From: Ectocarpus siliculosus
Taxonomy: Eukaryota; Sar; Phaeophyceae; Ectocarpales; Ectocarpaceae
Direction of reading: 5' to 3'
NCBI GenBank assembly: GCA_000310025.1
Contig: FN648370.1
Location: 23,903-87,902, forward strand
DNA: 64,000 bases
Under the pieces are notes generated by a model. That model was not told the origin of the DNA and made no database searches. It was given only the letters and a program-made list of their open reading frames with translations. Numbering within the stretch: position 1 is the stretch's first letter; every line of letters starts with the position of its first letter. A program made the position numbers and the translations under genes. Below, one piece after another: positions 6,949 to 55,852 of the stretch.

Positions 6949-6955
6949 CTGCGAG

Positions 6956-20852: not shown

Positions 20853-20883
<31 letters not shown>

Positions 20884-30095: not shown

Positions 30096-31339
30096 TAACG
30101 ATGGTGTTGGAGGAGGGCGGGGGCAAGGAGGCAGGGAATAATAACCTCAAGTTGCCGATGGCGGTGATATTGATCTTCTTGGCGTTGTGGTTGTGTAGTT
30201 TTTTGCCGTTTTCCCGTTCAGTGCGTGCTTACAGCAGAGGGCTAAAGGTGACAGGGATTGGCCCGGCAGTAAATCCTATGTGACGGTCTTGCACGCACAG
30301 TGAGGTTGAATGTTATTCGGATGTTGTCCGTGTCTTACAATTGTGTCCAAGCGTACTTGATTGATAGTGTATTGCGGCGTGCGAGTTTAATGACTCTACA
30401 CAACAAAGCCTGCATGTCGTTGGACGACTTGTGTCAAACCATGGACGAGAGGTTGTAGAGCTCCAGTGTTGAATGAGATTAGACTGTTGTTCCGGTAGGA
30501 GACTATTCGTCCCCTTTCCCTTTAAGTTGCAAATCACGTGCGTGCGTGCTTGCATGTCCGGTTCGACCTGAAGATTGTTAAGTGTTCAGCGCGCTAAAGC
30601 GCGGTGCTATGTTCATGCGTATTCTTCGCTGTTGGTGCCAATCGCCACAAGCAACTACTCCATTCCTCTTGCTGGGGTATGCGGTTCAACATGTTATTTA
30701 GTGGCCTTGCGCACGCGCCGCGCTCCACCGTCTCGAAGAAGTTGTTTTTGAGGAACGTCGTTGACTTGGCCCGTTTCTCCTTTCTCTCTCTCTCTCTCTC
30801 TCTCTGGCGTAAAAGAAGAGATGTGTATCTGTCCGTCAAAACTAACGAGTTTGCCGACGTGAAGCATCGAGCATGACCGCAACTCTTTTCCATCGCCCTC
30901 AGATGTCGTGTTTTCGCTCCCCGCCCAAGACACGACCGAACATTTTTCCCATGCAAGCCTGTTACTTCACGACTGATGGGAAACGCGAACACCGATAATG
31001 TCTCTGGAGACACGGTTGCACCTTTGTGTTGTGTCTCGAAAAAAGATCCATGTAGTTGGAGGAGGGTCTTGAAGGTTGCACGCGTACCCACATTTAATTT
31101 GTTCAATTGACTCCATAGTGCGTGCTAAATAGACAGGATTGTCAACCGACGCACTTGTAACACCTTTTTCCGTGTTAGGCGTGACGCGTATGGTTTGCAT
31201 GCGATGAGGAATGAATACGTGTCCAAGCAGCGTGCCACCGTGTACTTCGACGTGGTACAGTATGTGTTGTTGCTGGTGGTGTCAACATTTACACATAACT
31301 TGTCCACATAAGACCCCTCACTCACTGCTGTTTCCTTGG
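30096..31339. other. 3' flank of the cold-shock gene up to the palindrome
   Basis: It holds the 3' UTR of the cold-shock gene and a CT microsatellite at about 30782-30806. No exon with splice support was found before the inverted repeat begins. Confidence 0.45.
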
Positions 31340-32944
31340 TATCCCTGTTGAGGTACAGTAGCAGTGCCGTCAGATCAGATACCTACACAAGCTAGCCTCC
31401 TCTACAGACACACTAGCTGTTGCCACAAGCAAGGCGCTTCCAATCGCAATACAATACAGAACCCGGGGTCACTATGAAACATCCCCTCCCAGTGAGGCAA
31501 ACCCACGGTGTTGAAAATTTGAAAAATCGAGCCGCATTTTCTCAACAAAAATGTATCGACGGGCCCCCCTCCTCTCCGCTCCTCTCTGCCTCTCACTCAT
31601 ACCTCAGCCCTTGCAACTTCCTTGGCGTGGCTCAACAGCGCGCCATCACAGCGAGGGGAGAGGAACCGGCGGCAAAGCTGGGCCAGAGAGCTAGCAGAGA
31701 AGTGAAGAGGAGTCACTCGCGTGGTTCGGGTGAGTGGGGTGAAATCTTCACGCCAGCAGATTTTTTGCAGACGGGTGAGCTGAGATCTAGCCTGCAGCTA
31801 GCGCCGGAGGGCACACCCGTTTAACTCTCCGGGATCGCGAGGTGTGAATGGAGGGTACACCGAGGGGAGACAAGGGATGTTGGCATGGTGCTTGCTTTCG
31901 GTGCTCGCTGCTTTGATTCCCTCGTTGTGCGTCTGTCCAACTCCCTCTGCATGCCTTGTCTTTTTCGCCGAGCTGAACCGTCGCCCCCTCGGACTGCCGC
32001 TGGATCCCGTGCATGACATGGCATGGATGTGTAGAGCTACCCCCGCCTCTAGCCCCCTGCCACCGCTGGCACACGTGGTACCCTCCGCGATGCATGTTCC
32101 ATGCTCAACACACAGTGTTCGGCTTATCGAATCGGTGTGCAGAGGAGAGGGCAAGCATCACTGAAATATTTCCGGAGTGAAAGCGTCGCCAGCGGACGCT
32201 TTGGTTCCCCCTCATGTTTGCGTGAAACGACAGTCCACACATATATGACGTGTTTGTTCGAGCCTACCGTGGGCACGGATTTGGGAGTCAATCGAAATCG
32301 GTCGCGCTTCCAGTATAGCAGGCAAAGTCAACACAAAGCTAGGCTCGAGCCACTATCAGCAATAGGACAGGTGTACATGTGTCTCTCTCCATGAAATCAA
32401 ACGCTGGTGCTGTGTGTGTGAATGTATGTATGGGAACCGTTCTTCTTTCCACTAACCCGCTGTACTATCAGCAGTGTGTAAGTACCAGGAACGTTGTTCG
32501 TACACAACTAGTGGCCACTGCTGTAGCTTCAATAGTAGCTGTTGTGGGAAGAAGCCAAGGAAGCAGTTTTTCATGGTGCGGTGTAGGCTGTGCGTTGTGA
32601 ATGGGCGCAGGCGTGCCTGTCTCGATATGCACAACATCCCGGATTTTCGGGAGAGTCGGACCTTGACAACATGATTTTGAGTCCAATTGGTAACACCGTG
32701 CTGCTGCTGATACTGCTGCTGCTGCTGCTGCGTTACTGCTGTACCGAGGGTGTCCACACCATGGCGTCCAGGCTGCTGTACCCCACACCTGTGCGGCAGA
32801 GAAGAAGAGCGAGCGTGAAACTGGGGATTGTTCGTGGCGGCTTCCCTGTGGGTTTTTCACTCCCACTCGCTCACCACCCCACATTTTCCCTACGTGTCGT
32901 CGTCCGCTGCACGCGATCTCTCGCTGTTGTTCAGCTTCTTCAGG

Positions 32945-35900
32945 ATGAACATGATGTCGATGTTTGGCACGGCACCACCCAGTTGGTGCTCTCGGAGGGC
33001 AAGGGGGTGCTTGTCGCGCATTCGCTCGAAATACGGCTGGTGCTGCCGCAGGTAAAGTTCAAGTTTTGTTATGGGAGGGCACATTGAAAAATTGTAGAAA
33101 ATTGTACAAATACGCACACATGACAATGCCCGTGTGGTTTGTCACAACCACGCTGATACGTCCGTCAGTAGCTTCCGCAGCCATTTGGATGCACTCATTC
33201 GCGTTGCGGGAGGTACGATGGCTGTTTGGCGCTTTTGTACAGCAGCACTGCTTACTCGGTTTCCCATGCACATGTCACAAGTTTCGCCCGGCCAGAATCT
33301 AGAACACACCAAACTTTACCTGTACAGCATGCCTTTCTTTGCCGTGTGCCTTCAAGCACACTCTTCGCCATTTGTACAACCGGATTCAGCTAGTGTTTCG
33401 TTTGCTTTGGTTGGTTTTCGGAGTTTGATAATTGGGTGCATACATGTTTTTCACATGACTTCACGATATGGAGATCGTCCGGTGTAGGCCGTGTTTCCTG
33501 AGCATCGGCTTGTTTGTCGCTTTTACCACGGGGGAACCACAAACAAACTTGCAATACGTCCATCCTTTTGTGGGGTCGACATACCATATTTTTGGGCTTT
33601 TCGGGCGCTGTGGACAAATGGACCCCAAGTCCCGCCGAAGTGCCGAAGACACCAATACAGCGATAGTCCAAGGCCGGGCACAGAGTCGAGGATTCGTCCA
33701 TCCATGTAAACATCTCATATGACGTTGAGATGATGATCCAGTGTCGGAGGAAAAGCATGTAACAACTGATTGACGCTGTGGCTGTCTGGCTGTGCGTCGA
33801 TCGTTTGCACTACTGCTGCTGTTGCATGTTTTGGTGCACTTCCGCACAGAGACGATAGAATGACCACCCTTGAAGCGTCGCAACAACATGCATCGGACTC
33901 ACGTCCATACACTCCGCACTTACTTCGAGATTGAACAGCCCACTGTGGTCAATGTCATACGGTACTGAGATTCTGCCCTCGCCTAACGCGTGGTGGTTGT
34001 TTTCTCTCGTACTACTACTGTATGGCGCGCCGTCTTTCTTTTCTGTGCCAATACGTCACAGCAACCGCAGGTCAAGGAAGGTCACGAAGAACGACTACAT
34101 GGACGTCGCGCCTGCCAATCCTCTGGGACAGGTAAGGAAAAAGCTATGAAATTGTACTTGGTAGTCTGCAACTCAACCACCTGGACGTCTGAGAAATGAT
34201 TGTTTCGTGTATGTAAACGTATGCTCGGTAGGATTTTATTCCCAGCTTAGCGCACTTTGACTGCATGCGAACTACCTCCGACCCGCAAAAAGTAGACAAC
34301 AGGGGGTACCGAGGCATGCGTGGTATAACTGATCGGCAAACACAAGTTCAACTTCGACGCTTTCCCTTTACGGAACGAAGCTTGCACGCGTAGTTTCTCC
34401 GCATGCTGCGGAGCCAATGCATAAGCGATACTCTTGGTGACACTTGTTGTGTGCCGTGTTTGTTTGTGCAAATCCGTGTGCCTTGATCGACCAAATCGTG
34501 CTCGCAGTGGATTTCGTGGGCCCTACGCTCCTGTGGTGCCACTCGTCCGGCTCATGAAGATACTCTTCCTACTTGGGAAAGCGTGGCGGAGTACGATGAG
34601 GCTGGGCACACCATGAGGCCGTCGAGGGTAGTGTCGTCGGTTTTCCAGTCCATGGCCGAAGAAGACCCTGCCGCGACGAGCACTTTCTACTCAACTTCCT
34701 CTCCCGGTGCCACGTCTGTCCCCCGTTCGATGTCCGCATCTGCTTGTGCGGCTGCCGCTGCTTTTGCGGCGGCCTCCGCTTCTACTTCTGCCTCCGCTTC
34801 TGTCATTGAAGTGTCTCGCTCGGTTGCCACCGGCGCCACTTCACCAACCCCTATGTCGGCCACAGCCAACCCCACAGCCGCTAGTGGACACGGAGGCGTT
34901 GACCAGGCAAGGAACATCGAGGCCGGGGTGGACAACGTGGTTGACAAGGCGGCCGACGAACCGGAGGAGATGAAGGCCGGCAGCATTTTGGACATGAAGA
35001 ATGAGATCAACGACAACGGTGAGCACGACGAGGAAGAAGGCAAGATCGCGACAAAACTTATACTGGGCAGTAATTCAATATAGAGTTCAGACTATTGTTG
35101 TTTGTTTGTTGTTTTTGCTTTAGTACAAGAACGACGAATGAGTATTTACGACTTGCCTTAGTCGAGTTCACCGCTGTTGTCGTCGTCGATCTTGTACGAA
35201 AGAAAAAACACCAAACAAAAAAATAGACACTGAATTCCTGGCCTGTCCAGGAATGAATGAATTCAAGATGCTTATTATTATCTATTTTATGGAAGCCCTC
35301 TACTCTGGCTGAGCAGAGAGTCCGGGAGTGTGGTGGCTATATCCTGCCACCGGAGGTTGGCTATTTCCTTTGGTGCAATGTGGCGAGGAATGCCAAGCGT
35401 GACCGAGCGAGCTCAGTCAAGCTAGGGTGGCGAAGAGAGTGGGCGAGCCTTCGTGGACCCTTTTCCCATTCTCCTAAAGATTCATCAACTCTTCGCAGCC
35501 GTTGGGAATCGTAAGAGTCATAGACCCTCGAAGAACGGTAATCTATTATCACATATCCTCTCAGATCCTACTCTTTATGTACGTGTATCTGTGCTCCCTG
35601 AATCTCCATATCCTGACCTCCACAATTTGGTTGGTTGTTTGGTGTTTTTTCTTTCGTACAAGATCACAACGAATCATCTCTATCCACAGATAGATAAGAG
35701 TCTGAGATAAATCAGCAATGACTTCACATTGTGGCGAGGCGTCAGCGGACACTTCAAGAATGCATATGTACATGTGTGTTTCTGTGGTTTTTATGCAGAT
35801 TATTGTTGCTGCTGTGTCCGTCCGTTTCGCGATTTTCTTGAAACGTTTTCTACACGCTGTTCTGGTGGACTTGTCGCTGGACTGCTTGTACCAAATCTGT

Positions 35901-38900
35901 GCGCAGTTTGAGATGTAAAACTAGAGTCTACCACCAGTACCGCAGATCGACTACAGCAGTACAGCACCACATCTATCGCGTTTGTTCGTGCTTTACGCTG
36001 CGGCTCAGACGATCTTGGGTCGCCCCGAATCTCGGTGCTTTTGGCTCAAACAATTGGATATCTTTGTCTATATCCATGAGCCAGTCGGCAACAGTGCCAG
36101 TACCCACCCGGCATTGCGCATCTAGCAAACAACTCACCTCGTGGGGTTGTACTCGACATTGTCAAGCTGCCCTTGTAGTCGATAGTCCCGTGAGAAGTCC
36201 ACGCAACGCCCAACAGCCAGGACGATACAATGATGGGGAGACGAAAAACCCTTCTGAAAAATTACATTGTAGTGAAACGGCATAGGTTCTGCCGCCGAAC
36301 CACCTCGTCCTCCCGAGCTCCCGAGAGGCCCGGACAGAGTTAGCACTCTGCGCTCTGACCGTTCAAGCGCATACACATGCTGCTGCAGTACCCTAGCTTC
36401 TGTTGTTGTGCCTAGTGCAAGAAAGAGAGATCGGATCTCTCGATAGCCCTCATGGAGCCTAACAGCCGTGTTGGACCTTGAGCGGGTTCAAATGCTCGAA
36501 GCATGTCTGGCGTTGCCGTTCCTGCCGTGATCAGGGGTGGTTCCATTGGCATGTTCGGACCTGTTTCAAGTTAAAAAAGGTTGTTCGTGTCTGATCCAAG
36601 ACAGAAGTCCGGCTGTGTCGTACTTGTAACGTGTTTATTTATTCGGGAACACTCATCTTCACCTACGCAATCGCAGGTGGAGCGGCGGTAATGATGGGGT
36701 CTGTCATTGGTCAAGACGAGGAGGTTGAGGAGGCGTCCTTCATGCCCCCAGCATTCCGCAGCAGCGACGACAACGCCATGCGGAAGTGGGAGGCAAGAGA
36801 CGTCGCGATGAAGGTCATCGATGCCGAGATTGGCGGTGGCACGTTCGGTGAGCAACGAAAACAGCAGCACCGCGCGGACTCAGCGAGCGATGCACAGCTC
36901 GAACAGCTGCAGCACAGCCGAAACGTCTGTAAATCAACTCGTAAGTCGAACAGCTGCAGCACAGCCGAAACGTCTGTAAATCAACTCGTCGCGTTGTCAG
37001 ACGAATGTTGTCCCGGTGCACGGAGAACGTGATTGGTTTCAATGTCTACGAGAAGTAGACTACTGCTGTACTCAATTTGCCCTCTGCTGGAGATCGTCAC
37101 CGTATTGCCCTAGGTGCTAGGATAAAGAGTGCGTTCCCCTGCCCCCGTGACTAGAATTCGGCTTTAGAACGTTCATGCCATGTTCAACGCGGTGGAGGCT
37201 GGAACGAAGATTGAGTTAGACGGTGTATTTATTTATGGTGTAGTCTACCTGTGTTTCGCCGTTCGACGTGTAGTCTAGAGTGTTCGATCTACAGCAATGG
37301 AGAGTATCCGCCAAACAATTTTGTTGACGTTCCTGCGTACCAATCATGTGTTTATTGCGTTTTTTTGACGCGCTCTTGGAGCAGCCAGGGTCGTATTTGG
37401 TCAGACCAGCATCGGCATGCCTGTGGCCATCAAGGTCATCAACAGGGACAGCGACGCCTTTGGAAGCCAGGCAAGAGCGGTGATGTGTTCTTGTCCATGC
37501 AAGTTCTGCACTGAGAAGTGACCACGATGATCTTGGACGCACAGCCACAAGGTCGTCATATAGTTTACAGTAGGCTTAAGCACGCCCGGTGTTGAAAGTA
37601 TACAGTAACGCAAGAAATACAAAGGCCACTGTAGCGATAGCCCCTCGAGACTGCTTCTGCTGTACTTGCTTTCTGGCTTCTTGGCGCGGTTGCGAGCACC
37701 CATCGTGCTGCGTGCGTGCTCCATAATATACCGCGTGTCATGTACTCCTTGCTTGAGGTAGGTTAGCTTCGAAGTTTCACCAAACCTTTGAACAACTCCA
37801 TACTGTAGAACAATAGCTTTCAGCCACACGAGATTTGCAACCCTTCCGCGGGTGGCAGTCGCACAGCAAAATCCGGTTGCCATTCTACGTTTGAAGTAAC
37901 CCATTCACGGTATTCCCAACTCTACATTAGGGTCGCACCACCGAATATAACACCAACAAATCATGACGATTCCTGCAGGACAAGTACATCAACCGCGAGA
38001 TCCAGACCCTGACCATGGCCGCACACCACCCGAACGTGGTGGACATCCTCGGCACCCTTAAGACTCCCAGCACGTGAGATTCTACCAGTCAATCTCTCTT
38101 GGTGGATAGTGCTGTCTGAGGTGTATCCTTCACATGTCGCGCGCTGCCTGTCTGTACTTGTGCATGTCTGGGTTGTTTGCGACCCATGGTGGTACGAATC
38201 AGCAGGCCTTTTGAAGATGACAGCGTGTGCCGTACATGTACAGCATTCTAGTGTTGAAATCGAAAGGCGACTGAGGCCATCGAAAGGCGTTCTATCGACG
38301 TGCTTCGTAGGGTGGGGCGGGTTGTTGCATAGGAATCGCTATGTTGAGCACGTAGTTGTAGTAATGTTGTGTGCTAGAACCAAACGCTGTGCTCGGTACA
38401 ATGAATACTTGCTCACGTGTTTGGCGTTGTCTGACCCACGCTTACCTGGCCATCCCGTGTCGAACTCAACTACAACAGCACCTTCATGATCATGCCCCTT
38501 CTGCACTCGGACGTCGCGACTCTCCTGAAGGTGCGGTATGCCCTTGTTGGATGAACTAGCAGTAGTGCAATAGTGATTTGCTTAGGTTAGTGCGGGAACA
38601 ACAGACTCGCTGCTCCGGTCCTCACTTGTTTGCTCGTTTGTCGGCGTTGGTACTCCCGTCGGGATGAGAGGCGATTGAAATACATACCCAACAGCAGTAT
38701 TGATCATGTGTTGGTGTTGATGTAATCGTCTGAGAAGTGGCAGTTTTACCGGTCACGTGTTCGCTTCGGTGTCGAGTATCCATGGTTTGGCAGTCATGTA
38801 TCTGTTCTTTACAGCAGTAGTTCTCGAGGTGCACCAACGGAGTGTTTGCACGTTCCTGCGTCTACTATGTAGTCCGTCCAAATCTCCTATCGGCGGGATG

Positions 38901-41900
38901 TGAAATTTTCCTCCAAGGTTAAACTTTCGTCGTGGCTATCGTTTCTACGCTCGCAATGTTTGAAATATTTGGCGCGAGTTTGACAATCGTTACGGGTTTC
39001 TCTGACGTTCAATGGACGGGGAAGATCGTGAGAATTCCGTTCATTCGCACAACATAAGACCCGAAGGCACTTGAACACCGTGCGGTAACACGAAATACCG
39101 CGCTTCCTTTCCGCAATGAATGCAACAGGAGAAGCCCCTGCAAGAGAAGGAGGCCGTGACGATCTCCATCCAGATGTTCTCCGCAATCGAGCACGTACAC
39201 AGCAAGGGCATCCTGCACCGAGACCTGAAGCCGGCCAACTTGCTGATCACTAACGGTGAGAACAGCCTATGATAGGATGATAGGTGTACCTTTGTTGCGA
39301 ATTGCGATTGTACTCTGATTGTACTAATACTTAAACTGGTAAACACATCTATGGTACGGTGCTCCCTGTTTGGGAGGGAAGGGGTCGTACAAGCCGTCTC
39401 AGTGTACAGTGGTTGTGTCTCTTGGTGTGATTGTGCGATTACCGTAGGTCCAGGAGTTGTGCCTGTCCTATCGCTATGACACCACTGTGATATAGGAAGA
39501 GGACATGCACGTCACGGTGGTCGAGCGAGCTTGACCTCGGCGTTGTGGCATGGTCCGGCGCTTGGGCGATTGATTCTTAGCAAGGCTGGAAGCATTTCCG
39601 TCCCGTTCCTTGCTACACTAGTAGCACTTTGGCTTTCTGCAACGGAGTGAAGCAACCAATCACGACTGGGTACATGTAGGGGCAACAACGTCGGTGACCC
39701 ACCCACCCCGCTCCCTTCCCTTTGCAACCGCAACGTAATCGAAATGGACACGTTGACCGACATGAGCACAGACATGCAAGTTCGCCTCGCTGACTTCGGG
39801 TTCTCGAAGATGCTGGCGGAGGGAGAGACCACCATGACCGGGCTATGTGGTACCAAGGTGGGATGATGTTGCCCGATTACTGGTTATTGAAACCGTTCGA
39901 CGTGCGGCAACTTGTTGTGCCGGCCTTGGCGACGCACGTGCTGCAGATGCGGTGCATCTCGCTGTCGTCAAACGCGCTTCCGCATTGGCCGTGGAGCCGC
40001 CCGCCGCATCCTCCCTTGCAAACGTGGCTATTAGGGGCTTGTGGCGTTCTGCCTTGTAGAAGACACGGACCACCTTTTGCACATGGCATGGTGCGCGTCT
40101 GCGTAGAGCTATTGGGTTGCACTTGTACCCTATTCTCTCTGTGGCGCAGCTGCTGCCATGGCGTGTAGCTGTGTGTGTGTGACGTGCTTACGTAAACCGG
40201 CACTATTGAGGGGTTCCAAGGTGCCCAAACCGGCACTATAGTGGGCATCCCTGTTTAGTGTCGGTCTGGCACTAAGCAAGGCTCTGGCTGTGCCCAGGGA
40301 TTTGACCGGCACTATACCGGGCATTGGCACAATGAAACCGGCACTAAACTGGGACCCCCTCTGTAGCATTGACCGCGCTAACCGGCTGACCAATGAAAAG
40401 ACGTCAATCTCAGTGCGGAGGAAAAAATAAAGTGCTAGGCCACGATCTGGGACCCTGTGAGGGAGTGTCATGGGGGAGTCTAAATTTATGCAACTCTCCG
40501 AATTGAAGAATGGTTGTTTACGGGTCGATTGTACACCTCACGTGCCTCATGCACTGCATACAACACCCGCGGTCTTTCCGTTGTTTCTGCTGGCGGCACC
40601 CTATCGCCAGCCCTACCTATCTCCAGAGCAGGTTAACAGATCGCCCTACGGGATTGAGGCGGACATGTGGGCTGCCGGGGTGGTGGTGTCCGAGCTACTC
40701 ATGGGTGTCACGGTCTTCTGGTGGGTACAATACTAGAAGTACATCATGGCTCGTGGTTGCCAGTTGCAGTTGTATCCCTATTCTAGTGTAAACATGCGTA
40801 GACCTGCCTACAAAGCCAGGCGCAGAGGGTCGGGACCAGTGTACCAGAAACGGTACGGATTGTACGGGAGGTGCACTATGCTGCTTTGCCGTCGACTAGA
40901 AGAAAACACAACACGCATGTACAACTTCTGACCCTCCCGGCTCCCTCTTTCCCCCCACGCCTCTTGCGGAGTTCAGCCCGGACCCCAGCATCGACCTGGG
41001 ACCGATCTCTAAGGACATCTCGAGCCTCGAGGAGGGGGGGGACATCCGAATGAGGCTAGACCCGTACGATGAGTTGGAGAGGGAGAACATCCGAGCTGGG
41101 GTCTTCAAGGTGGACTCTGAGCGCGTCGGAGCGGTGGGAGAGGACTTCTTGAGGAAGGTGAATGGGATCGAGAAAGCGCGAGTGTTGTGGACAAAGCGTA
41201 AAGTAGTCTTCTCCCAGTGCAGAGCAGTGTGGCGTGTATGGGCATGCAACGATATATGTTGATATTGATCATGTGTTGTGCGGTGGTAAGATTCAGGGAG
41301 GGTAGATGGAATGGGGAATACATATCTAAGCGGACAAGCCGTACACGGTACACTATACTATCTATGTGTAAATCAGCGAAGCACTAAACTGCTATGAGCA
41401 TTGGTGGAGGATGACCTCGTCGATATTGGACACACTGCGCCGATCCGCAGTGAACATTCATTCACAATGTAGATTTCGTATGTACAGCGAACATTGCTCG
41501 TGAGTCTTGTAACGTCTGCCAGACCTCGGCTGGCTGTGCAAGACCTGTATTGACGTTGGGAGCTTCCAAGACTTGCGGGACCCTGCGACACTATGTAGGT
41601 GCCGAAACGACACCGCCTATGTTCCCTATTTCCCGGCCACGCTTTCTGTACCCCCACAGCTAATCGTCCTCGACCCGGCGGAGAGGATGTCCGCACGACA
41701 GGCGGGAGAGCACCCGTGGCTCGGAGACGAGGGCGCGGTGATGCTCAAGAGGGCTGAAGTGGAGGCGGTTTTGAAGGAAGCGCAAGAGACAGAGCAGGCT
41801 GAGAAGAACGAGAGGATGAAATTTCTCAGGTAGCTGTCAATGGTCGTTACCGTTTCTTTCTCAGGTGGCTTGCACATGTCAATTTTGAACGCCTGTTCGA

Positions 41901-42424
41901 CATCGATATTGTTTTCGGGCTTAGTCAGATCGCTTCGTCCCCCGTGTTTGGAATGATGTGTAGAAATAAGTAAGAGCAAAGTAATCAGAGATCCTTGGTT
42001 TTACGGCACGTGGTTGAACACTTTGAATGCACAGACTACGGTTTGCAAAGTCAAGGAGCCTGATCCATTTGAAGCCGTCGACGAAGTTCTTGTTCCCCTT
42101 GACAAAGTTCTCGTCGACATCGATCGTTGCTCTTGCCTTCAACTCGGCAGGAGCAAGAGGCGACGCCGGGTGCCAAAGATGGCGAGAGCGGCGAGGGTCC
42201 TGGCTCCCGTTGCGGAGGGAGCACTGCAGCCGGCTTCGAGCACCGCGGGCGCCGTGTCCATGCTCACCTCGGCAAGCGTGGGAGCAGCGACTGGGGCGGG
42301 GGCGGACGTTCCTCGTGCGATGATGGTGGCCGAGTCCGGGTCCACGGCGGTGCGGTCGAGCGAGGGAGAAGCATGTGGTTCGGGCGCGGGTGTGGTGCAA
42401 GCCCCGATCGGCCAGGAGCTGTGA
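32945..42424 (+). CDS. Serine/threonine protein kinase, left copy
   Basis: Thirteen exons close in phase to 676 residues: 32945-33051, 34071-34131, 34508-35018, 36677-36847, 37385-37470, 37979-38073, 38479-38530, 39129-39255, 39772-39857, 40611-40720, 40977-41157, 41660-41829, 42151-42424. A Ser/Ala-rich, low-complexity N-terminal region (about 1-270) precedes the kinase domain (about 274-550): glycine loop IGGGTFARVVF (278-288), VAIK with Lys300, helix-C Glu319 (NREIQTL), catalytic loop HRDLKPAN (Asp393), DFG (411-413), YLSPEQV in the APE place, DMWAAG, and LDPAERMSARQAGEHPWL (533-550). All catalytic residues are present, so it should phosphorylate Ser/Thr. The domain looks closest to CAMK-type kinases; that is my reading. 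A basic, then Ala/Ser/Gly-rich tail follows. The intron after exon 5 uses a GC donor (GCCAG|GCAAGA). The start ATG in exon 1 is chosen because it keeps phase in both copies. Confidence 0.88.
35189..35664. mobile_element. Small TIR DNA element (MITE-like), left-arm copy
   Basis: A 476-base element bounded by perfect 30-base terminal inverted repeats: ATCTTGTACGAAAGAAAAAA... and its complement ...CTTTCGTACAAGAT. It lies in the intron after the long third exon of the left kinase gene and carries no transposase. An inner hairpin, TTCCTGGCCTGTCCAGGAA, is present. The right arm has the same ends around a much shorter middle. Confidence 0.8.
36901..36994. repeat. 47-base tandem duplication, left arm only
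   Basis: GAACAGCTGCAGCACAGCCG and the bases after it occur twice (from 36901 and 36948). The right arm has a single copy, so this arose after the inverted duplication. It lies in the intron just after the glycine-loop exon. Confidence 0.85.
39920..40510. mobile_element. Transposable-element fragment inserted in the left arm
   Basis: A 591-base block absent from the right arm, where the flanks join directly (...CTTGTTGTG|TGGCTGTTT). Its right half has at least four subterminal copies of ACCGGCACTA, a pattern seen in DNA transposons that bind transposase near their ends. Its left half, on the minus strand, encodes a Cys/His-rich piece (HVCKGGCGGRLHGQC, then HRICSTC) like a zinc finger in some transposases. 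No target-site duplication or clear terminal repeat was seen, so the class is undecided. Confidence 0.6.
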
Positions 42425-42431
42425 GGGTAGA

Positions 42432-45097
42432 CTGATACCGTACCTTGGGACATGACGTTGCATCATCTGTTGTGTGTTTACTCTACAGCAGTTGAGGTGG
42501 GATTTCGTCGGTTTGGAAATAGTCTAGTCCAACAGAACCATGCTTGATGACAAACAACTTTACATGTGCAGCGCGGTGTTCCTGCTTCCCGAATTCCGAT
42601 AGGGATTCTCAGCGATGTTTACCTAAACATGTGGTATGTGGGAATTGATGTGGGTCGATTGGCCTTCAAGAGGCTCAGGTTGTTAAGAGGTTGATGGCGT
42701 CTTCATCCGCTTGACTTTAGACTGACTGCAGACCATTGCATGGTGTCTTGTGAAACTGCAAGTTCGGGGTACGAAATTGTTTGGGAGGTCGTGGTTGTTC
42801 CTGCGAGCATTTGGCGCACACATAGTGATTATTCCACGTTCCACATGTGTTGTTTAGAACTACCCAACCATCGCGTCGACTGCACGCATCAGATTTATCG
42901 TAAACTACTTAATGTTTAATCGTGTCTGGTGATATCCTGAGGGATACGGTACTGTTTAATTAAGTATTGAACTGTTTTTGAGTGTCCTAGGTTATTCCGA
43001 GCTCTGACCGACTGACGGCGGCACACCAGTGACCGCGCATTGTAGGACGCCGACAGACACATGTTCCACCAATATGCGGCACGACACTATGTCGTCTGAG
43101 CCTGGCACTATTCGAAAAGATGGTTGGAAAAGTCAGCGGTTATTGTTCTCGTGTCTTGAAGGTCTCCAAATTCCTTTGGAACCTTTCTTTCGCCGTGGAT
43201 ATCGTGATCGCGGGGCAGTAATATTGTGTGCAGTGTGCCAGACAAGTTTGACACTGCTAACCGGCGAAATAGTGACCGTTTCACACACCAACTTGAAAAC
43301 TAGCCGTAGAATCGGAGGTTAAACACTTCATTTGGGCTCGAAGGTTGCATCAACCAAGGCGGAGCTCCCTGTCACAACACTCTCCGCAGAAATTTTTAAC
43401 CATCCGCAGAAGAACACCAGGCTCACTAACAGCAATATATTCGTGTTCCCCTGTTCATACTGGCCATTACGGTATCAAACGCGTAGAAGTTGTATGGCTG
43501 TGCTCAGCATTGGAGAAGAACAGACTTCTGTGTATCATCCTGGATCAGCTTGTATGCAAAGGGTGCTGTCGGCTGGCTATAAGGAGCGTGCTTGCAGCAC
43601 CAAATGGAGTATTGTAGCGAAGGGAGCTTTTACCAACTTGCCACCTCTCTTTGTACCCGATCATGTAGCACACGACTGAGGGCGCGGTGGAGGGTGGCGT
43701 TTGCTTGAAAAGACGACATATCGACTAGCATCACATGTTATGCGATGCTCGGCCAGTGGATGAGGCCAAAAATTAGGCCGCATCTTGGTGGTGGCCACAA
43801 AAATCCGCCCGTCGAAAGGTGCATGCCGCCAAAAAAAAGGATGGATCATCACCTGCGGCCTGCACCGCGCTTAAAACGATGGCTACCACCAGACAAAGTG
43901 AAATGTTTGTCGCTCGACCATCTGTGGTACCAGTTTCTTGCCGACCTCCTCCACATCGTTGAGGACGACAAACAACAATCGGAAGCGATCACTGGCTAAA
44001 TGGGAAGAACGCTGGCCACATGTCCTTCTCCGGGAATCGCCTGTGGCTAAGGATATGTCCGAGAATCGGGGGTCACGGTCCTCCACCAATTGCCTTTGGT
44101 TACGATCGCTGGCGAGTTGGTTGAAACATACACACGTAATTGCATTGCAGGCCTGCCGGCTTTCCGGCCTTGTCCATTCACTTCATTGCATTACCATGGG
44201 GCTCCAGCTGTCGAAGGGTACTCACTCAGAAACACCGCGATTGATCAGATAAATGGAACAAATTCCCTACATAGCTCTCTATCACACAGTCACTCGTTGA
44301 GCGGCGATTCGAACCAGAAGAACAAAGGAAAGCAGCCATAATACGTTGTAGAAAGAAAACCCACAACGGCACATCAATCTCAGGCTGTTTCTCTTCCACC
44401 CTCTGCTTCCAGGAAGTCCCTCCCGCCTCCCCAACACCCGCACCCGCGTACTATATATAGTCAGCGACAATATTCACATCCGACCGTATTCGAAGCATGT
44501 AGAGCCCCCAAACGTTTCCTTCTTTTGTTTTCCCTCCCCTAATTTTCCCTCCTTCCGAAACGGGTTTGTACCAAGTATTACATACGTACAACAGTGTGTA
44601 GCAGGGCACCTACATGTTTTCACCATAAGCGGGTGACACGACCGGGACGCAAGTAACCACAAATGGACCAGCAGCAGAACAGCATAGGCGGGTTGTCAGC
44701 CCGCCTGGCTACGCCGCTTCAGCACCAACGGGCACACCTCAGGGCCTTCGTGATGAGTCGTTCGTCAAGATGCCTCCGTCTTTGCCCCAACAATGAAGTC
44801 ACAGAACAAGTCTCACCAACACAATTAACTAATTGTTCAAACCCAGGCTGCGGTACTAGGACGCTGGCATTGCGGCACTTCGCCGGATAGTACAAGCGCG
44901 GAACAATGTCACCCGGGACAGTGTGAAAGTTGATGGTGAGCGTCAATAGCTATATGGCACCACCCCCAAGGCAGACAAGAATCATTTCGTGCATATCTTG
45001 AGACGGACGGAGCCCCACCCCCTTTACAGTACACGCACAGCAGACGATGGAACGTCATGTCCCACGGTGTTGCAGCGTCGCGGGGGTTTGACCACAA
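42432..45097. other. Unique spacer between the palindrome arms
   Basis: 2,666 bases not shared by the arms, lying between the two convergent kinase stops. Several short ORFs exist but none has splice or family support. A small palindrome, CTATATATAG, occurs at 44450-44459. Termination signals of both kinase genes should lie near its ends. Confidence 0.6.
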
Positions 45098-45104
45098 TCT
45101 ACCC

Positions 45105-48100
45105 TCACAGCTCCTGGCCGATCGGGGCTTGCACCACACCCGCGCCCGAACCACATGCTTCTCCCTCGCTCGACCGCACCGCCGTGGACCCGGACTCGGC
45201 CACCATCATCGCACGAGGAACATCCGCCCCCGCCCCAGTCGCTGCTCCCACACTTGCCGAGGTGAGCATGGACACGGCGCTCGCGGTGCTCGAAGCCGGC
45301 TGCAGTGCTCCCTCCGCAACGGGAGCAAGACCCCTAGCCGCTCTCGCCATCTTTGGCACCCGGCGCCGCCTCTTGCTCCTGCCGAGTTGAAGGCAAGAGC
45401 AACGATCGATGACGAAGAGAACTTTGTCAAGGGGAACAACAACTTCGTCGACGGCTTCGAATGGATCAGGCTCCTTGACTTTGCAAACCGTAGTCTGTGC
45501 ATTCAAAGTGTTCAACCACGTGCCGTAAAATCAGGATCTCTGAATATTCTCTATGTATCATTCCAAACACGGGGGACGAAGCGATCTGACTAAGCCCGAA
45601 AACAATATCGATGTCGAATAGGCGTTCAAAATTGACATGTGCAAGCCACCTGAGAAAGAAACAGTAACGACCATTGACAGCTACCTGAGAAATTTCATCC
45701 TCTCGTTCTTCTCAGCCTGCTCTGTCTCTTGCGCTTCCTTCAAAACCGCCTCCACTTCAGCCCTCTTGAGCATCACCGCGCCCTCGTCTCCGAGCCACGG
45801 GTGCTCTCCCGCCTGTCGTGCGGACATCCTCTCCGCCGGGTCGAGGACGATTAGCTGTGGGGGTACAGAAAGCGTGGCCGGGAAATAGGGAACATAGGCG
45901 GTGTCGTTTCGGCACCTACATAGTGTCGCAGGGTTCCGCAAGTCCTGGAAGCTCCCAACGTCAATACAGGTCTTGCACAGCCAGCCGAGGTCTGGCAGAC
46001 GTTACAAGACTCACGAGCAATGTTCGCTGCCAGCCGAGGTCTGGCAGACGTTACAAGACTCACGAGCAATGTTCGCTGTACATACGAAATCTACATTGTG
46101 AATGAATATTCACTGCGGATCGGCGCAGTGTGTCCAATATCGACGAGGTCATCCTCCACCAATGCTCATAGCAGTTTAGTGCTTCGCTGATTTACACATA
46201 GATAGTTTAGTGTACCGTGTACGGCTTGTCCGCTTAGATATGTATTCCCCATTCCATCTACCCTCCCTGAATCTTACCACCGCACAACACATGATCAATA
46301 TCAACATACATCGTTGCATGCCCATACACGCCACACTGCTCTGCACTGGGAGAAGACTACTTTACGCTTTGTCCACAACACTCGCGCTTTCTCGATCCCA
46401 TTCACCTTCCTCAAGAAGTCCTCTCCCACCGCTCCGACGCGCTCAGAGTCCACCTTGAAGACCCCAGCTCGGATGTTCTCCCTCTCCAACTCATCGTACG
46501 GGTCTAGCCTCATTCGGATGTCCCCCCCCTCCTCGAGGCTCGAGATGTCCTTAGAGATCGGTCCCAGGTCGATGCTGGGGTCCGGGCTGAACTCCGCAAG
46601 AGGCGTGGGGGGAAAGAGGGAGCCGGGAGGGTCAGAAGTTGTACATGCGTGTTGTGTTTTCTTCTAGTCGACGGCAAAGCAGCATAGTGCACCTCCCGTA
46701 CAATCCGTACCGTTTCTGGTACACTGGTCCCGACCCTCTGCGCCTGGCTTTGTAGGCAGGTCTACGCATGTTTACACTAAAATAGGGATACAACTGCAAC
46801 TGACAACCACGAGACATAATGTACTTCTAGTATTGTACCCACCAGAAGACCGTGACACCCATGAGTAGCTCGAACACCACCACCCCGGCAGCCCACATGT
46901 CCGCCTCAATCCCGTAGGGCAATTTGTTCACCTGCTCTGGAGATAGGTAGGGCTGGCGATAGGGTGCCGCCAGCAGAAACAACGGAAAGACCGCGGGTGT
47001 TGCATGCAGCGCATGAGGCACGTGAGGTGTACAATCGACCCGTAAACAGCCACACAACAAGTTGCCGCACGTCGAACGGTTTCAATAACCAGTAATCGGG
47101 CAACATCATCCCACCTTGGTACCACATAGCCCGGTCATGGTGGTCTCTCCCTCCGCCAGCATCTTCGAGAACCCGAAGTCAGCGAGGCGAACTTGCATGT
47201 CTGTGCTCATGTCGGTCAACGTGTCCATTTCGATTACGTTGCGGTTGCAAAGGGAAGGGAGCGGGGTGGGTGGGTCACCGACGTTGTTGCCCCTACATGT
47301 ACCCAGTCGTGATTGGTTGCTCCACTCCGTTGCAGAAAGCCAAAGTGCTACTAGTGTAGCAAGGAACGGGACGGAAATGCTTCCAGCCTTGCTAAGAATC
47401 AATCGCCCAAGCGCCGGACCATGCCATAACGCCGAGGTCAAGCTCGCTCGACCACCGTGACGTGCATGTCCTCTTCCTATATCACAGTGGTGCCATAGCG
47501 ATAGGACAGGCACAACTCCTGGACCTACGGTAATCGCACAATCACACCAAGAGACACAACCACTGTACACTGAGACGGCTTGTACGACCCCTTCCCTCCC
47601 AAACAGGGAGCACCGTACCATAGATGTGTTTACCAGTTTAAGTATTAGTACAATCAGAGTACAATCGCAATTCGCAACAAAGGTACACCTATCATCCTAT
47701 CATAGGCTGTTCTCACCGTTAGTGATCAGCAAGTTGGCCGGCTTCAGGTCTCGGTGCAGGATGCCCTTGCTGTGTACGTGCTCGATTGCGGAGAACATCT
47801 GGATGGAGATCGTCACGGCCTCCTTCTCTTGCAGGGGCTTCTCCTGTTGCATTCATTGCGGAAAGGAAGCGCGGTATTTCGTGTTACGCACGGTGTTCAA
47901 GTGCCTTCGGGTCTTGTGTTGTGCGAATGAACGGAATTCTCACGATCTTCCCCGTCCATTGAACGTCAGAGAAACCCGTAACGATTGTCAAACTCACGCC
48001 AAATATTTCAAACATTGCGAGCGTAGAAACGATAGCCACGACGAAAGTTTAACCTTGGAGGAAAATTTCACATCCCGCCGATAGGAGATTTGGACGGACT

Positions 48101-51100
48101 ACATAGTAGACGCAGGAACGTGCAAACACTCCGTTGGTGCACCTCGAGAACTACTGCTGTAAAGAACAGATACATCACTGCCAAACCATGGATACTCGAC
48201 ACCGAAGCGAACACGTGACCGGTAAAACTGCCACTTCTCAGACGATTACATCAACACCAACACATGATCAATACTGCTGTTGGGTATGTATTTCAATCGC
48301 CTCTCATCCCGACGGGAGTACCAACGCCGACAAACGAGCAAACAAGTGAGGACCGGAGCAGCGAGTCTGTCGTTCCCGCACTAACCTAAGCAAATCACTA
48401 TTGCACTACTGCTAGTTCATCCAACAAGGGCATACCGCACCTTCAGGAGAGTCGCGACGTCCGAGTGCAGAAGGGGCATGATCATGAAGGTGCTGTTGTA
48501 GTTGAGTTCGACACGGGATGGCCAGGTAAGCGTGGGTCAGACAACGCCAAACACGTAAGCAAGTATTCATTGTACCGAGCACAGCGTTTGGTTCTAGCAC
48601 ACAACATTACTACAACTACGTGCTCAACATAGCGATTCCTATGCAACAACCCGCCCCACCCTACGAAGCACGTCGATAGAACGCCTTTCGATGGCCTCAG
48701 TCGCCTTTCGATTTCAACACTAGAATGCTGTACATGTACGGCACACGCTGTCATCTTCAAAAGGCCTGCTGATTCGTACCACCATGGGTCGCAAACAACC
48801 CAGACATGCACAAGTACAGACAGGCAGCGCGCGACATGTGAAGGATACACCTCAGACAGCACTATCCACCAAGAGAGATTGACTGGTAGAATCTCACGTG
48901 CTGGGAGTCTTAAGGGTGCCGAGGATGTCCACCACGTTCGGGTGGTGTGCGGCCATGGTCAGGGTCTGGATCTCGCGGTTGATGTACTTGTCCTGCAGGA
49001 ATCGTCATGATTTGTTGGTGTTATATTCGGTGGTGCGACCCTAATGTAGAGTTGGGAATACCGTGAATGGGTTACTTCAAACGTAGAATGGCAACCGGAT
49101 TTTGCTGTGCGACTGCCACCCGCGGAAGGGTTGCAAATCTCGTGTGGCTGAAAGCTATTGTTCTACAGTATGGTGTTGTTCAAAGGTTTGGTGAAACTTC
49201 GAAGCTAACCTACCTCAAGCAAGGAGTACATGACACGCGGTATGGAGCACGCACGCAGCACGATGGGTGCTCGCAACCGCGCCAAGAAGCCAGAAAGCAA
49301 GTACAGCAGAAGCAGTCTCGAGGGGCTATCGCTATAGTGGCCTTTGTATTTCTTGCGTTACTGTATACTTTCAACACCGGGCGTGCTTAAGCCTACTGTA
49401 AACTATATGACGACCTTGTGGCTGTGCGTCCAAGATCATCGTGGTCACTTCTCAGTGCAGAACTTGCATGGACAAGAACACATCACCGCTCTTGCCTGGC
49501 TTCCAAAGGCGTCGCTGTCCCTGTTGATGACCTTGATGGCCACAGGCATGCCCATGCTGGTCTGACCAAATACGACCCTGGCTGCTCCAAGAGCGCGTCA
49601 AAAAAACGCCATAAACACATGATTGGTACGCAGGAACGTCAACACAATTGTTTGGCGGATACTCTCCATTGCTGTGGATCGAATACTCTAGACTACACGT
49701 CGAACGGCGAAACACAAGTAGACTACACCATAAATAATAAATACACCGTCTAACTCAATCTTCGTTTCCAGCCTCCACCGCGTTGAACATGGCAAGAACC
49801 TTCTAAAGCCGAATTCTAGCCACGGGGGCAGGGGGATGCACTCTTTATCCTAGCACCTAGGACGATACGGTGACGATCTCCAGCAGAGGGCAAAAGTGAG
49901 TACAGCAGTAGTCTACTTCTCGTAGACATTGAAACCAATCACGTTCTCCGTGCACCGGGACAACATTCGTCTGACAGCGCGACGAGTTGATTTACCAGAC
50001 GTTTCGGCTGTGCTGCAGCTGTTCGAGCTGTGCATCGCTCGCTGAGTCCGCGCGGTGCTGCTGTTTTCGTTGCTCACCGAACGTGCCACCGCCAATCTCG
50101 GCATCGATGACCTTCATCGCGACGTCTCTTGCCTCCCACTTCCGCATGGCGTTGTCGTCGCTGCGGCGGAATGCTGGAGGCATGAAGGACGCCTCCTCAA
50201 CCTCCTCGTCTTGACCAATGACAGACCCCATCATTACCGCCGCTCCACCTGTGATTGCGTAGGTGAAGATGAGTGTTCCCGAATTCAAAAACACGTACGA
50301 AGTACGACACAGCCGGACTTCTGTCTTGGATCAGACACGAACAACAGGTCCGAACATGCCAATGGAACCACCCCTGATCACGGCAGGAACGGCAACGCCA
50401 GACATTCTTCGAGCATTTGAACCCGCTCAAGGTCCAACACGGCTGTTAGGCTCCATGAGGGCTATCGAGAGATCCGATCTCTCTTTCTTGCACTAGGCAC
50501 AACAACAGAGCTAGGGTACTGCAGCAGCATGTGTATGCGCTTGAACGGTCAGAGCGCAGAGTGCGAAATCTGTCCGGGCCTCTCGGGAGGACGAGGTGGT
50601 TCGGCGGCAGAACCTAGACTATGCCGTTTCACTACATGTAATTTTTCAGAAGGGTTTTTCGTCTCCCCATGGTGGTGTTGCGTGGACTTCTCACGGGACT
50701 ATCGACTACAAGGGCAGCTTGAAAATGTCGAGTACAACCCCACGAGGTGAGTTGTTTGCTAGATGCGCAATGCCGGGTGGGTACTGGCACTGCTGCTGAC
50801 TGGAATCATGGATCATACTTGTAGGCTAGACAGAGACCATGAGCAAAAGCACAGAGATTCGGGGTAACCCAAGATCGTCTAAGCCGCAGCGTTAAGCACG
50901 AACAAACGCGATAGATGTGGTGCTGTACTGTTGTAGTTGATCTGCGGTACTGGTGGTAGACTAGTTTTACATCTCAAACTGCGCATGGATTTGGTACAAG
51001 CAGTCCAGTGAGAACCCCACGAAGAAACAGCATGTAGAAAACGTTTCAAGAAAATCGTGAAACGGACACAGCAGCAACAATTTTTGTTTATTTTTGCGCG

Positions 51101-53623
51101 CCAAAAACCAAAGAAACGCACGTGTACATATGCATTCTTGAAGTCTCTGCTGACGCCACGCCACAATGATAAGTGATTGCTGGTTTATCTCGGACTCTTA
51201 TCTATCTATCTGTGTAGAGATGATTCGTTGTGATCTTGTACGAAAGAAGAAACACCAAACAAACAACAAATAGATAAATAATATGCAGTTTGAATTCATT
51301 CATTCCTCGACAGGTGAGAATACCCTTGCTCCAGGAATGCAATGCCTATTTGCTTGTTCGGTGTTTTTTCTTTCGTACAAGATTGACGACGACAACAGTG
51401 GTGAACTCGACTAAAAAAAAGGCAAGTCGTAAATACTCATTCGTCGTTCTTGTACTACAGCAAAAACAACAAACAAACAAATAGTCTAAGTCTACAAGGC
51501 ATTGAAGTACTGGCCAGTGTAAGTAAGTCGCGATCTTGCCTTCTTCCTCGTCGTGCTCACCGTTGTCGTTGATCTCATTCTTCATGTCCAAAATGCTGCC
51601 GGCCTTCATCTCCTCCGGTTCGTCGGCCGCCTTGTCAACCACGTTGTCCACCCCGGCCTCGATGTCCCTTGCTTGGTCAACGCCTCCGTGTCCACTAGCG
51701 GCAGTGGGGTTGACTGTGGCCGACATAGGGGGTGGTGAAGTGGCGCCGGTAGCAACCGAGCGAGACACTCCAATGCCAGAAGCGGAGGCAGAAGCAGAAG
51801 CGGAGGCCGCCGCAAAAGCAGCGGCAGCCGCACAAGCAGATGCGGACATCGAACGGGGGACAGACGTGGCACCGGGAGAGGAGGTTGAGTAGAAAGTGCT
51901 CGTCGCGGCAGGGTCTTCCTCGGCCATGGACTGGAAAACCGACGACACTACCCTCGACGGCCTCATGGTGTGCCCGGCCTCATCGTACTCCGCCACGCTT
52001 TCCCAAGTAGGAAGAGTATCTTCATTAACCGGACGAGTGGCACCACAGGAGCGTAGGGCCCACGAAATCCACTGCGAGCACGATTTGGTCGATCAAGGCA
52101 CACGGATTTGCACAAACAAATGGCACAAAACAAGTGTTACCGACAGTATCGCTTATGCATTGGCTCCGCAACATGCGGAGAAACTACGCATTCAAGCTGC
52201 ATGCCGTTTTGGGAAAGCGTCGAAGTCGAACTTGTGTTTGCCAATCAGTCATTCCACGCATGCCTCGGTACCCCTTGTTGTCTACTTTTTGCGGGTCGGA
52301 GGTAGTTCGCATGCAGTCAAAGTGCGCATTAAATCCTACCGAGCATACGTATACACGAAACAGTCATTTCTCAGATGTCCAGGTGGTTGAGTTCCAGACT
52401 ACCAAGTACAATTTCATAGCTTTTGTCTTACCTGTCCCAGAGGATTGGCGGGCGCGACGTCCATGTAGTCGTTCTTCGTGACCTTCCTTGACGTGCGGTT
52501 GCTGTGACGTATTGGCACAGAAAAGAAAGACGGCGCGCCATACAGTAGCAGTACGAGAGAAAACAACCACCACGTGTTAGGCGAGGGCAGCATCTCAGTA
52601 CCGTATGACATTGTTCACAGTGGGCTGTTCAACCTCGGAGTAAGTGCGGAGTGTATGGACGTGAGTCCGATGCATGTTGTTGCGACCCTTCAAGAGTGGC
52701 CATTCTATCGTCTCTGTGCGGAAGTGCACCACAACATGCAACAGCAGCAGTAGTGCAAACGATCGACGCCCAACCAGACGGCCACAGCGTCAATCAGTTG
52801 TTACATGCTTTTCCTCCGACACTGGATCATCATCTCAACGTCATATGAGATGTTTACATGGATGGACGAATCCTCGACTCTGTGCCCGACCTTGGACTAT
52901 CGCTGTATTGGTGTCTTCGGCACTTCGGCGGGACTTGGGGTCCATTTGTCCACAGCGCCCGAAAAGCCCAAAAATATGGTATGTCGACCCCACAAAAGGA
53001 TGGACGTATTTGTAAGTTTGTTTGTGGTTCCCCCGTGGTAAAAGCGACAAACAAGCCGACGCTCAGGAAACACGGCCTACACCGGACGATCTCCATATCG
53101 TAAAGTCATGTGAAAAACATGTATGCACCCAATTATCAAACTCCGAAAACCAACCAAAGCAAACGAAACACTAGCTGAATCCGGCCGTACAAATGGCGAA
53201 GAATGTGCTTGAAGGCACACGGCAAGAAAGGCATGCTATCCAGGTAAAGTTTTGTCTGTTCTAGTTCTGACCGGGCGAAACTTGTGACATGTGCATGGGA
53301 AACCGAGTAATAAGTAGTGCTGTACAAAAGCGCCAAACAGCCATCGTACCTCCGGCAACGCGAATGAGTGCATCCAAATGGCTGCGGAAGCTACCGACGG
53401 ACGTATCAGCGTGGTTCTGACAAACAACACGGGCGTTGTCATGTGTGCGTATTTATTTGTACAATTTTCAACGATTTTTCAATGTGCCCTCTCCCATAAC
53501 AAGACTTGAACTTTACCTGCGGCAGCACCAGCCGTATTTCGAGCGAATGCGCGATAAACACCCCCTTGCCCTCCGAGAGCACCGGCTGGGTGGTGCCGTG
53601 TCAAACATCGACATCATGTTCAT
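45105..53623 (-). CDS. Serine/threonine protein kinase, right copy
   Basis: Exons (minus strand, 5' to 3'): 53517-53623, 52432-52492, 51561-52071, 50078-50248, 49496-49581, 48898-48992, 48441-48492, 47717-47843, 47115-47200, 46843-46952, 46406-46586, 45685-45854, 45105-45378. Exon lengths equal those of the left copy, and the kinase motifs (IGGGTF, VAIK, HRDLKPAN, DFG, YLSPEQV, DMWAAG, HPWL) are intact. In the PYLSPEQV exon it reads NKLPYG and VVVFELL where the left copy has NRSPYG and VVVSELL; its Phe is the more usual kinase residue. The acceptor of exon 2 is changed from GCAG to GCAC at the expected border. The next AG, six bases on, would keep frame and drop two residues. The GC donor after exon 5 is conserved. 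Whether both copies are expressed cannot be read from the sequence. Confidence 0.85.
45982..46079. repeat. 49-base tandem duplication, right arm only
   Basis: CAGCCGAGGTCTGGCAGACG and following bases occur twice, at 45982 and 46031; the left arm has one copy. It is intronic in the right kinase gene. Confidence 0.85.
51233..51383. mobile_element. Small TIR DNA element (MITE-like), right-arm copy
   Basis: Same terminal inverted repeats as 35189-35664 (ATCTTGTACGAAAGAA...), now with two mismatches over 30 bases, around only about 90 internal bases. Together the arms show one element in a long and a short form at the same site. Confidence 0.78.
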
Positions 53624-53817
53624 ACTGGAGCTGAACAACAGCGAGAGATCGCGTGCAGAGGACGACGAAACGTAGGGAAAATGCGGGGTGGTGAGCGAGT
53701 GGGAGTGAAAAACCCACAGGGAAGCCGCCACGAACAATCCCCAGTTAGTTTCTCGCTCGCTCTTTTCTCTGCCGCACAGGTGTGGGCTAAAGCAGCCTGG
53801 ACGCCATGGTGTGGGCA

Positions 53818-54425
53818 CCCTCGGTACAGCAGAAACGCAGTAGCAGCAGCAGCACGGCGTTACCAATTGAACCCAAAATCATTCTCTCATAGCCCAACTC
53901 CCGACAATTCGGGGTGCCGTTCCTAAAACACACGGCCCCTTTCGCCCGGTGACAACGCGCAGCCAGGACCACAGCGTGAGAAGCTGCTTCTTTCACTTCT
54001 CCCCACAACAGCTATTATTGAAGCTACAGCAGTGCCCACTAGTTGTGTACCAACAACAACGTTCATGGTACTTACACACTGCTGACAATACAGCGGGTTT
54101 GCGTAGGAAAAACGACACCAGCCCTCGGTACAGCAGAAACGCAGTAGCAGCAGCAGCACGGCGTTACCAATTGAACCCAAAATCATTCTCTCATAGCCCA
54201 ACTCCCGACAATTCGGGGTGCCGTTCCTAAAACACACGGCCCCTTTCGCCCGGTGACAACGCGCAGCCAGGACCACAGCGTGAGAAGCTGCTTCTTTCAC
54301 TTCTCCCCACAACAGCTATTATTGAAGCTACAGCAGTGCCCACTAGTTGTGTACCAACAACAACGTTCATGGTACTTACACACTGCTGACAATACAGCGG
54401 GTTTGCGTAGGAAAAACGACACCAG
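53818..54425. repeat. 304-base tandem duplication, right arm only
   Basis: Units 53818-54121 and 54122-54425 look identical. They lie upstream of the right kinase start codon. The left arm has a single diverged counterpart near 32.4-32.75 kb. Confidence 0.9.
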
Positions 54426-54451
54426 CATACATCCTAAAATTGGCAACCTAC

Positions 54452-54474
54452 TGTAGACTAGACTAGTCTACAGT
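54452..54474. repeat. Perfect palindrome CTGTAGACTAG/CTAGTCTACAG
   Basis: A short inverted repeat, CTGTAGACTAGACTAGTCTACAG, just after the 304-base duplication. It is not present at the matching place in the left arm. Confidence 0.7.
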
Positions 54475-55569
54475 TCATACACACAGCAGTCAGTGTTTGA
54501 TTTCACGGAGTGAGACACATCTATACCTGTCCTATTGCTGATAGTGGCTCGAGTCTAGCTTTGTGCTGACTTTGCCTGCTATATACTACTGTAGAAGCGA
54601 CCGATTTCGATTGACTCGTCCCAAATCGGTGCCCACGATAGGCTCGAACAAACACGTCAGATATGTGTGCACTGTCGTTTCACAGCGAACATGAGGGGGA
54701 ACCAAAGCGTCCGCTGGCGACGCTTTCACTCCCCGGAAATATTTCATCAGTAATGTTTGCCCTCCGCTGTGCACCGATTCGATAAGCCGAACACTGTGTG
54801 TTGAGCATGGAACACGCATCGCCGAGGGTTCCACGTGTGCCAGCGGTGGCAGGGGGCTAGAGGCGGGGGTAGCTCTACACATCCATGCCATGTCATGCAC
54901 GGGATCCAGCGGCAGTCCGAGGGGGCGACGGTTCAGCTCGGCGAAAAAGACAAGGCATGCAGAGGGAGTTGGACAGGCGCACAACGAGGGAATCAAAGCA
55001 GCGAGCACCGAAAGCAAGCACCATGTCAACATCCCTTGTCTCCCCTCGGTGTACCCTCCATTCACACCTCGCGATCCCGGAGAGTTAAGCGGGTGTGCCC
55101 TCCGGCGCTAGCTGCAGGCTAGATCTCAGCTCACCCGTCTGCAAAAAATCTGCTGGCGTGAAGATTTCACCCCACTCACCCGAACCACGCGAGTGACTCC
55201 TCTTCACTTCTCTGCTAGCTCTCTGGCCCAGCTTTGTCGCCGGTTCCTCTCCCCTCGCTGTGATGGCGCGCTGTTGAGCCACGCCAAGGAAGTTGCAAGG
55301 GATGAGGTATGAGTGAGAGGCAGAGAGGAGCGGAGAGGAGGGGGGCCCGTCGATACATTTTTGTTGAGAAAATGCGGCTCGATTTTTCAAATTTTCAACA
55401 CCGTGGGTTTGCCTCACTGGGAGGGGATGTTTCATAGTGACCCCGGGTTCTGTATTGTATTGCGGTTGGAAGCGCCTTGCTTGTGGCAACGGCTATTGTG
55501 TCTGTAGAGGAGGCTGGCTTGTGTAGGTATCTGATCTGACGGCACTGCTACTGTACCTCAACAGGGATA

Positions 55570-55852
55570 TGGACAGTACACGTAGGAGACGGCTGTATGT
55601 GACCCTCGTCTTATTTGAGTGGGCGCATATTTGCACACGTTCTCGCCACCTCTGTAATGTTCATGACACGATCCACAGTGTCATACGGGCACCCGTTGTT
55701 ATTTATTTTTCAAGCACGGCGATGGTGGAGTCATCTGCTGGACTGAGAATGATCAGTTCGCCTCTCTTCTGTTCTCACCCGTAGACTGAACAAGACCTCC
55801 TTGAACACCTTCCACGTGGCGATCTCGAGACACACAGCACGTGTACATCCGG
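55570..55852. other. Flank of the palindrome
   Basis: Unique sequence right of the inverted duplication. Nothing supportable was found in it. Confidence 0.3.

Follow-up and report, generated by a model that had tools for sequence, protein, structure and literature searches.

Two open copies of a predicted protein kinase gene in a tail-to-tail palindrome of Ectocarpus siliculosus with unevenly diverged arms

In Ectocarpus siliculosus, a complete gene for a predicted Ser/Thr kinase is present twice, with the 3' ends of its copies facing each other, in the two arms of a long palindrome. Both copies are open, and the divergence between the arms forms a regional mosaic in which nearly identical tracts alternate with stretches that differ at more than a tenth of their positions. 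The analysis covers a stretch of 64,000 nucleotides (contig FN648370.1 of assembly GCA_000310025.1, positions 23,903 to 87,902 of the forward strand), hereafter the window, and all positions below are counted from its first letter. The arrangement was probably generated by an inverted segmental duplication of the kinase gene, followed by gene conversion acting in patches from arm to arm.

Results

Structure of the palindrome

Alignment of the window against itself with blastn resolves the inverted arms into four minus-strand blocks, each with E = 0.0, on either side of a unique spacer:

31340..42488, plus strand: arm 1, 11,149 bases, sharp outer edge (self-blastn)
42489..45021, no strand: unique spacer, 2,533 bases
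45022..55569, minus strand: arm 2, 10,548 bases, sharp outer edge (self-blastn)
31340-32727/55569-54131, minus: block 1, 89.0% identity (self-blastn)
32454-35287/54099-51268, minus: block 2, 91.3% identity (self-blastn)
35627-39919/51270-47053, minus: block 3, 94.5% identity (self-blastn)
40511-42488/47052-45022, minus: block 4, 93.7% identity (self-blastn)

These blocks, together with the open reading frames found in both arms, bear out the original prediction of a tail-to-tail palindrome of a complete kinase gene. The arm lengths first proposed (about 11.1 and 10.5 kb) agree with those measured here, and the proposed spacer of 2.7 kb is corrected to the 2,533 bases listed. At the outer edge of the arms (31340/55569) identity begins sharply: the 100 bases shown before and after the palindrome are unrelated, the flanks share no similarity over 3 kb on each side outside the arms (E up to 1e-3), and the outermost 798 aligned columns of the arms themselves contain 12 differences. 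At the inner edge, similarity weakens gradually before its end. Apart from the arm ends, nothing else in the window resembles the spacer, which also contains no Pfam domain in six frames at E up to 0.01. The only runs of N in the window, at 23395-23494 and 62740-62839, both fall outside the palindrome; the sequence beside these two 100-N gaps, at about 23300-23520 and 62456-62860, is rich in homopolymers and looks doubtful.

Two copies of a predicted kinase gene

Nine exons taken directly from the sequence splice in phase into a kinase core, and an extra 5' exon (34613-35018) joins this core in phase. The resulting 10-exon model, a reading of the genomic sequence alone without RNA, begins with an ATG at 34613 and closes with a TAG whose last base is 41833:

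34613..41833, plus strand: kinase copy 1, 10-exon model, 492 aa (spliced reading; Pfam PF00069 on the nine-exon core)
34613-35018, 36677-36847, 37385-37470, 37979-38073, 38479-38530, plus strand: copy 1, exons 1-5
39129-39255, 39781-39857, 40611-40720, 40977-41157, 41660-41833, plus strand: copy 1, exons 6-10
45681..51966, minus strand: kinase copy 2, 492 aa (10-exon model mapped from copy 1)

Copy 2 is open throughout and differs from copy 1 at 11 amino acids; the identical exon lengths that had been proposed for the two arms are found for all ten exons of the model. At both ends of each of the nine introns, the terminal six bases match between the arms, with a single mismatch close to the acceptor of intron 1; intron 3 is a GC-AG intron, with a GC donor, in both. 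The nine-exon core matches Pfam PF00069 (E = 6.9e-52), and among solved structures the closest sequences, in the best 60 of 2,620 matches, are AMPK alpha and CaMK chains. VAIK and HRDLKPAN are present in both arms and DFG in both spliced products, in keeping with the earlier claim of intact catalytic motifs in each copy. Both copies are predicted Ser/Thr kinases of the PF00069 family, closest in sequence to AMPK alpha and CaMK, and both are presumably expressed. Of the 13 exons initially proposed, ten are supported, and the remaining ones may sit in untranslated or terminal parts of the gene. A putative 3' exon at about 41999-42421 carries 6 synonymous and 5 nonsynonymous changes in one frame; inspection by eye only found no junction that would connect it in phase in each of the arms.

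Searches for relatives of the kinase confirmed none of 9 pattern matches in viral contigs and one of 42 in prokaryote genome contigs, the latter being a distant bacterial kinase with 34% identity over query residues 76-189; no eukaryotic relative of the kinase was found in either set of contigs.

Neighbouring sequence

Around the kinase gene, Pfam scans in six frames (E up to 0.01) found no domain in 31340-36300, 41832-45030, 26400-31339 or 55570-60500. A scan of 1-9850 likewise found no domain, and a scan of 16600-26399 yielded one R3H domain (21943-22116, plus strand, E = 2.7e-10) and two weak matches under Pfam's cut-offs, to a cold-shock domain at 20123-20212 and, in the 21500-26399 scan, to DUF1635. 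In all, the frame scans covered 1-9850, 16600-36300, 41832-45030, 55570-60500 and the minus strand of 60400-63990, and 36301-41831 was searched as the spliced model. In 60400-63990, scanned in three minus-strand frames, the sole match was to tRNA_SAD (60534-60608, minus strand, in the open reading frame 60459-60659; E = 1.8e-06, 28.3 bits, cut-off 24). The protein fragment with this match also carries what we take to be an alanyl-tRNA synthetase motif, and the palindrome may have a gene for that enzyme on its right-hand side. Rfam gave no matches at gathering scores. Elsewhere in the window, a direct repeat (11829-12368/25663-26213; 552 aligned columns, 94.7% identity) whose ends carry runs of C is perhaps a mobile element, and an exact 66-base tandem duplication occupies 28377-28508.

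Arm-specific indels and tandem copies

Up to 42488, the arms are separated by 53 indels, 12 of which span at least 10 bases. The insertions and tandem duplications previously proposed to be specific to one arm are evident in the sequence:

35288..35629, plus strand: arm-1-only stretch, 342 bases, inside intron 1
36899..36989, plus strand: exact 47-base tandem duplication, arm 1 only
39920..40510, plus strand: arm-1-only stretch, 591 bases, inside intron 7, degenerate ACCGGCACTA-type repeats
45980..46078, minus strand: exact 49-base tandem duplication, arm 2 only
53818..54426, minus strand: exact 305-base tandem duplication, arm 2 only

A 289-base gap in the alignment falls inside the 305-base exact duplication listed for arm 2. 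The 591-base stretch represents either an insertion in arm 1 or a deletion in arm 2; since inspection by eye revealed no clear target-site duplication at this or at the 342-base stretch, either of them could be an insertion or the trace of a deletion.

A regional mosaic of divergence

With gaps excluded and arm 1 taken as far as 42430, the arms align over 10,012 columns, of which 379 (3.79%) differ and 96.2% agree. Divergence between them mainly follows position. A two-state segmentation, with starting rates chosen by us and then fitted, divides the arms from the outer edge inward into segments differing at 1.5, 10.5, 2.9, 13.5, 2.4, 14.6, and 1.4% of columns. The least diverged stretch of 2,000 aligned columns contains 7 differences; in 2,000 shuffles the corresponding count averaged 60.3 and never fell below 43. 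This test presumes a single rate along the arms, and uneven constraint or uneven prior allelic divergence would also break it. The most similar region forms a well-defined core:

37480..39919, plus strand: tract of near-identity as placed in arm 1, largely intronic; 10 differences in 2,083 non-exon columns (0.48%)

Upstream of this core (31340-36676 minus exon 1), 304 of 4,510 non-exon columns differ (6.7%; Fisher p = 1.7e-38 for the comparison with the core), a figure to which simple repeats and indel-rich stretches contribute and where the alignment is less certain. Tracts of near-identity are hence present in presumably neutral sequence, set between more diverged stretches.

The coding exons had been proposed to be far better conserved than the introns. 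All ten exons together differ at 18 of 1,479 columns and the introns at 151 of 4,705 (Fisher p = 1.4e-5), but this overall contrast is produced by intron 1 alone, which has 115 differences in 1,264 columns, against 11 in 406 for exon 1 (p = 6.8e-6). Exons 2-10 (7 of 1,073) and introns 2-9 (36 of 3,441) are about equally alike (p = 0.28). On these counts, the contrast belongs to the 5' end of the gene and not to the kinase core, and exon-specific conservation fails as a general rule. Among the 7 differences in exons 2-10, 5 change the amino acid; the ten exons together contain 7 synonymous and 11 nonsynonymous changes, with a pN/pS of 0.48 that is indistinguishable from 1 (Fisher p = 0.16).

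Discussion

Two intron-bearing copies of one gene lie near each other in opposite orientation, between flanks that are unrelated, an arrangement that conforms to an inverted segmental duplication. Such an origin is argued for by the self-blastn blocks, by the equal lengths of the exons, and by the intron ends common to both arms, including those of the GC-AG intron. In the proposed process, duplication of a segment of about 10.5-11 kb would have placed a second, oppositely oriented copy of the whole kinase gene at a distance of 2.5 kb, along with some 3.3 kb before the start codon and 0.65 kb after the stop codon, yielding two converging genes. The arms would then have diverged as single bases changed and as small indels and tandem copies confined to one arm arose, and parts of them, above all the core at 37.5-39.9 kb, would have been re-homogenised by gene conversion between the arms. 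The case for duplication with later conversion draws on the unevenness of divergence, far beyond that of the shuffled alignments, and on the contrast between the core and the upstream sequence; being a comparison of the two arms with each other only, it assigns conversion neither direction nor date. Gene conversion in other palindromes has been reported to be GC-biased, although such a bias is not a requirement. The core of arm 1 is not raised in G+C (0.511, against 0.518 and 0.524 in its flanks), and a GC bias of conversion is therefore not seen here.

Gene conversion, as suggested in the original prediction, fits the mosaic of identity, but the same pattern could be produced if the inverted duplication had joined two different alleles of the locus from a diverse population, so that the patchy differences existed beforehand and no later conversion was needed. 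The patchiness, ranging from 1.4% to 14.6% by segment, would also resemble mosaic heterozygosity, and nothing in the present data separates such a joining of alleles from conversion. We regard it as a rather unlikely account of the locus.

Assembly error provides a further alternative, in which two haplotypes of one locus, or the two sides of a chimeric join, were placed tail to tail. The low-complexity, doubtful-looking sequence beside both N gaps lends this some plausibility, and exact tandem copies such as those of 47, 49 and 305 bases can arise as assembly faults. The palindrome itself, however, contains no N, and its arms differ at 3.8% of aligned columns in addition to their 53 indels. 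Furthermore, two alleles should share their flanks, and those of the palindrome are unrelated over 3 kb on each side. It is this lack of relation outside the arms, together with the sharpness of the outer edge, that makes alleles of a single locus unlikely and an artefact improbable, in agreement with the earlier view, likewise formed from sequence, that the palindrome is not an echo of assembly.

Purifying selection on two needed copies of the kinase could, on the other hand, create a mosaic without any conversion. Both reading frames are open, and exons are more alike than introns both overall and in the comparison of exon 1 with intron 1. Moreover, the segment of low divergence at 34459-35052 (2.4%) overlaps exon 1, which, together with the far fewer differences of exon 1 than of intron 1, indicates that selection explains part of the mosaic. 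Selection on the protein does not, however, explain why introns 2-9 match between the arms about as closely as exons 2-10 do, and the pN/pS ratio is not distinguishable from 1. As an explanation of the whole mosaic, selection without conversion is thus quite doubtful, and duplication followed by patchy conversion is the reading we favor. A palindrome of this kind could in principle give rise to hairpin RNA or to copy-number change, but it is highly improbable that the arms have been actively maintained over the long term in this lineage while read-through double-stranded RNA from the convergent pair regulates the dose of the kinase.

Inverted gene pairs are already known in other eukaryotes, and the locus fits these known kinds. 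Long inverted repeats of Caenorhabditis hold convergent and divergent pairs of paralogous genes, for which gene conversion is discussed and so, on the basis of earlier work, is a stabilising role of central asymmetry (PMC1803023). The Ectocarpus pair resembles them in its inverted paralogs, its spacer, and its arms of near-identical coding and intergenic sequence; two of the Caenorhabditis examples described have spacers of 126 and 414 bases, unlike the 2.5 kb found here, and in both cases the structure is also present in related species (PMC1803023). In the human Y-chromosome palindrome P6, conversion tracts have a mean minimum length of 2,068 bases, and the present locus is similar in having big inverted arms kept alike in multi-kilobase tracts, but arms of the P6 type are more than 99.9% similar (PMC3723533), whereas those described here are patchy and agree at 96.2% of aligned columns with gaps left out. 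The pair is also comparable to convergent tandemly arrayed genes, neighbouring duplicates on opposite strands, in a survey restricted to vertebrates in which the convergent and the divergent type each account for 3-14% of such pairs (PMC2547482).

The locus offers a clear example of an inverted gene duplication in which both copies are open and divergence shifts sharply along the arms. It also illustrates how a regional mosaic of identity can look like exon conservation across most of a gene. If sequenced relatives exist, the palindrome could serve to quantify how much its inverted arms exchange sequence.
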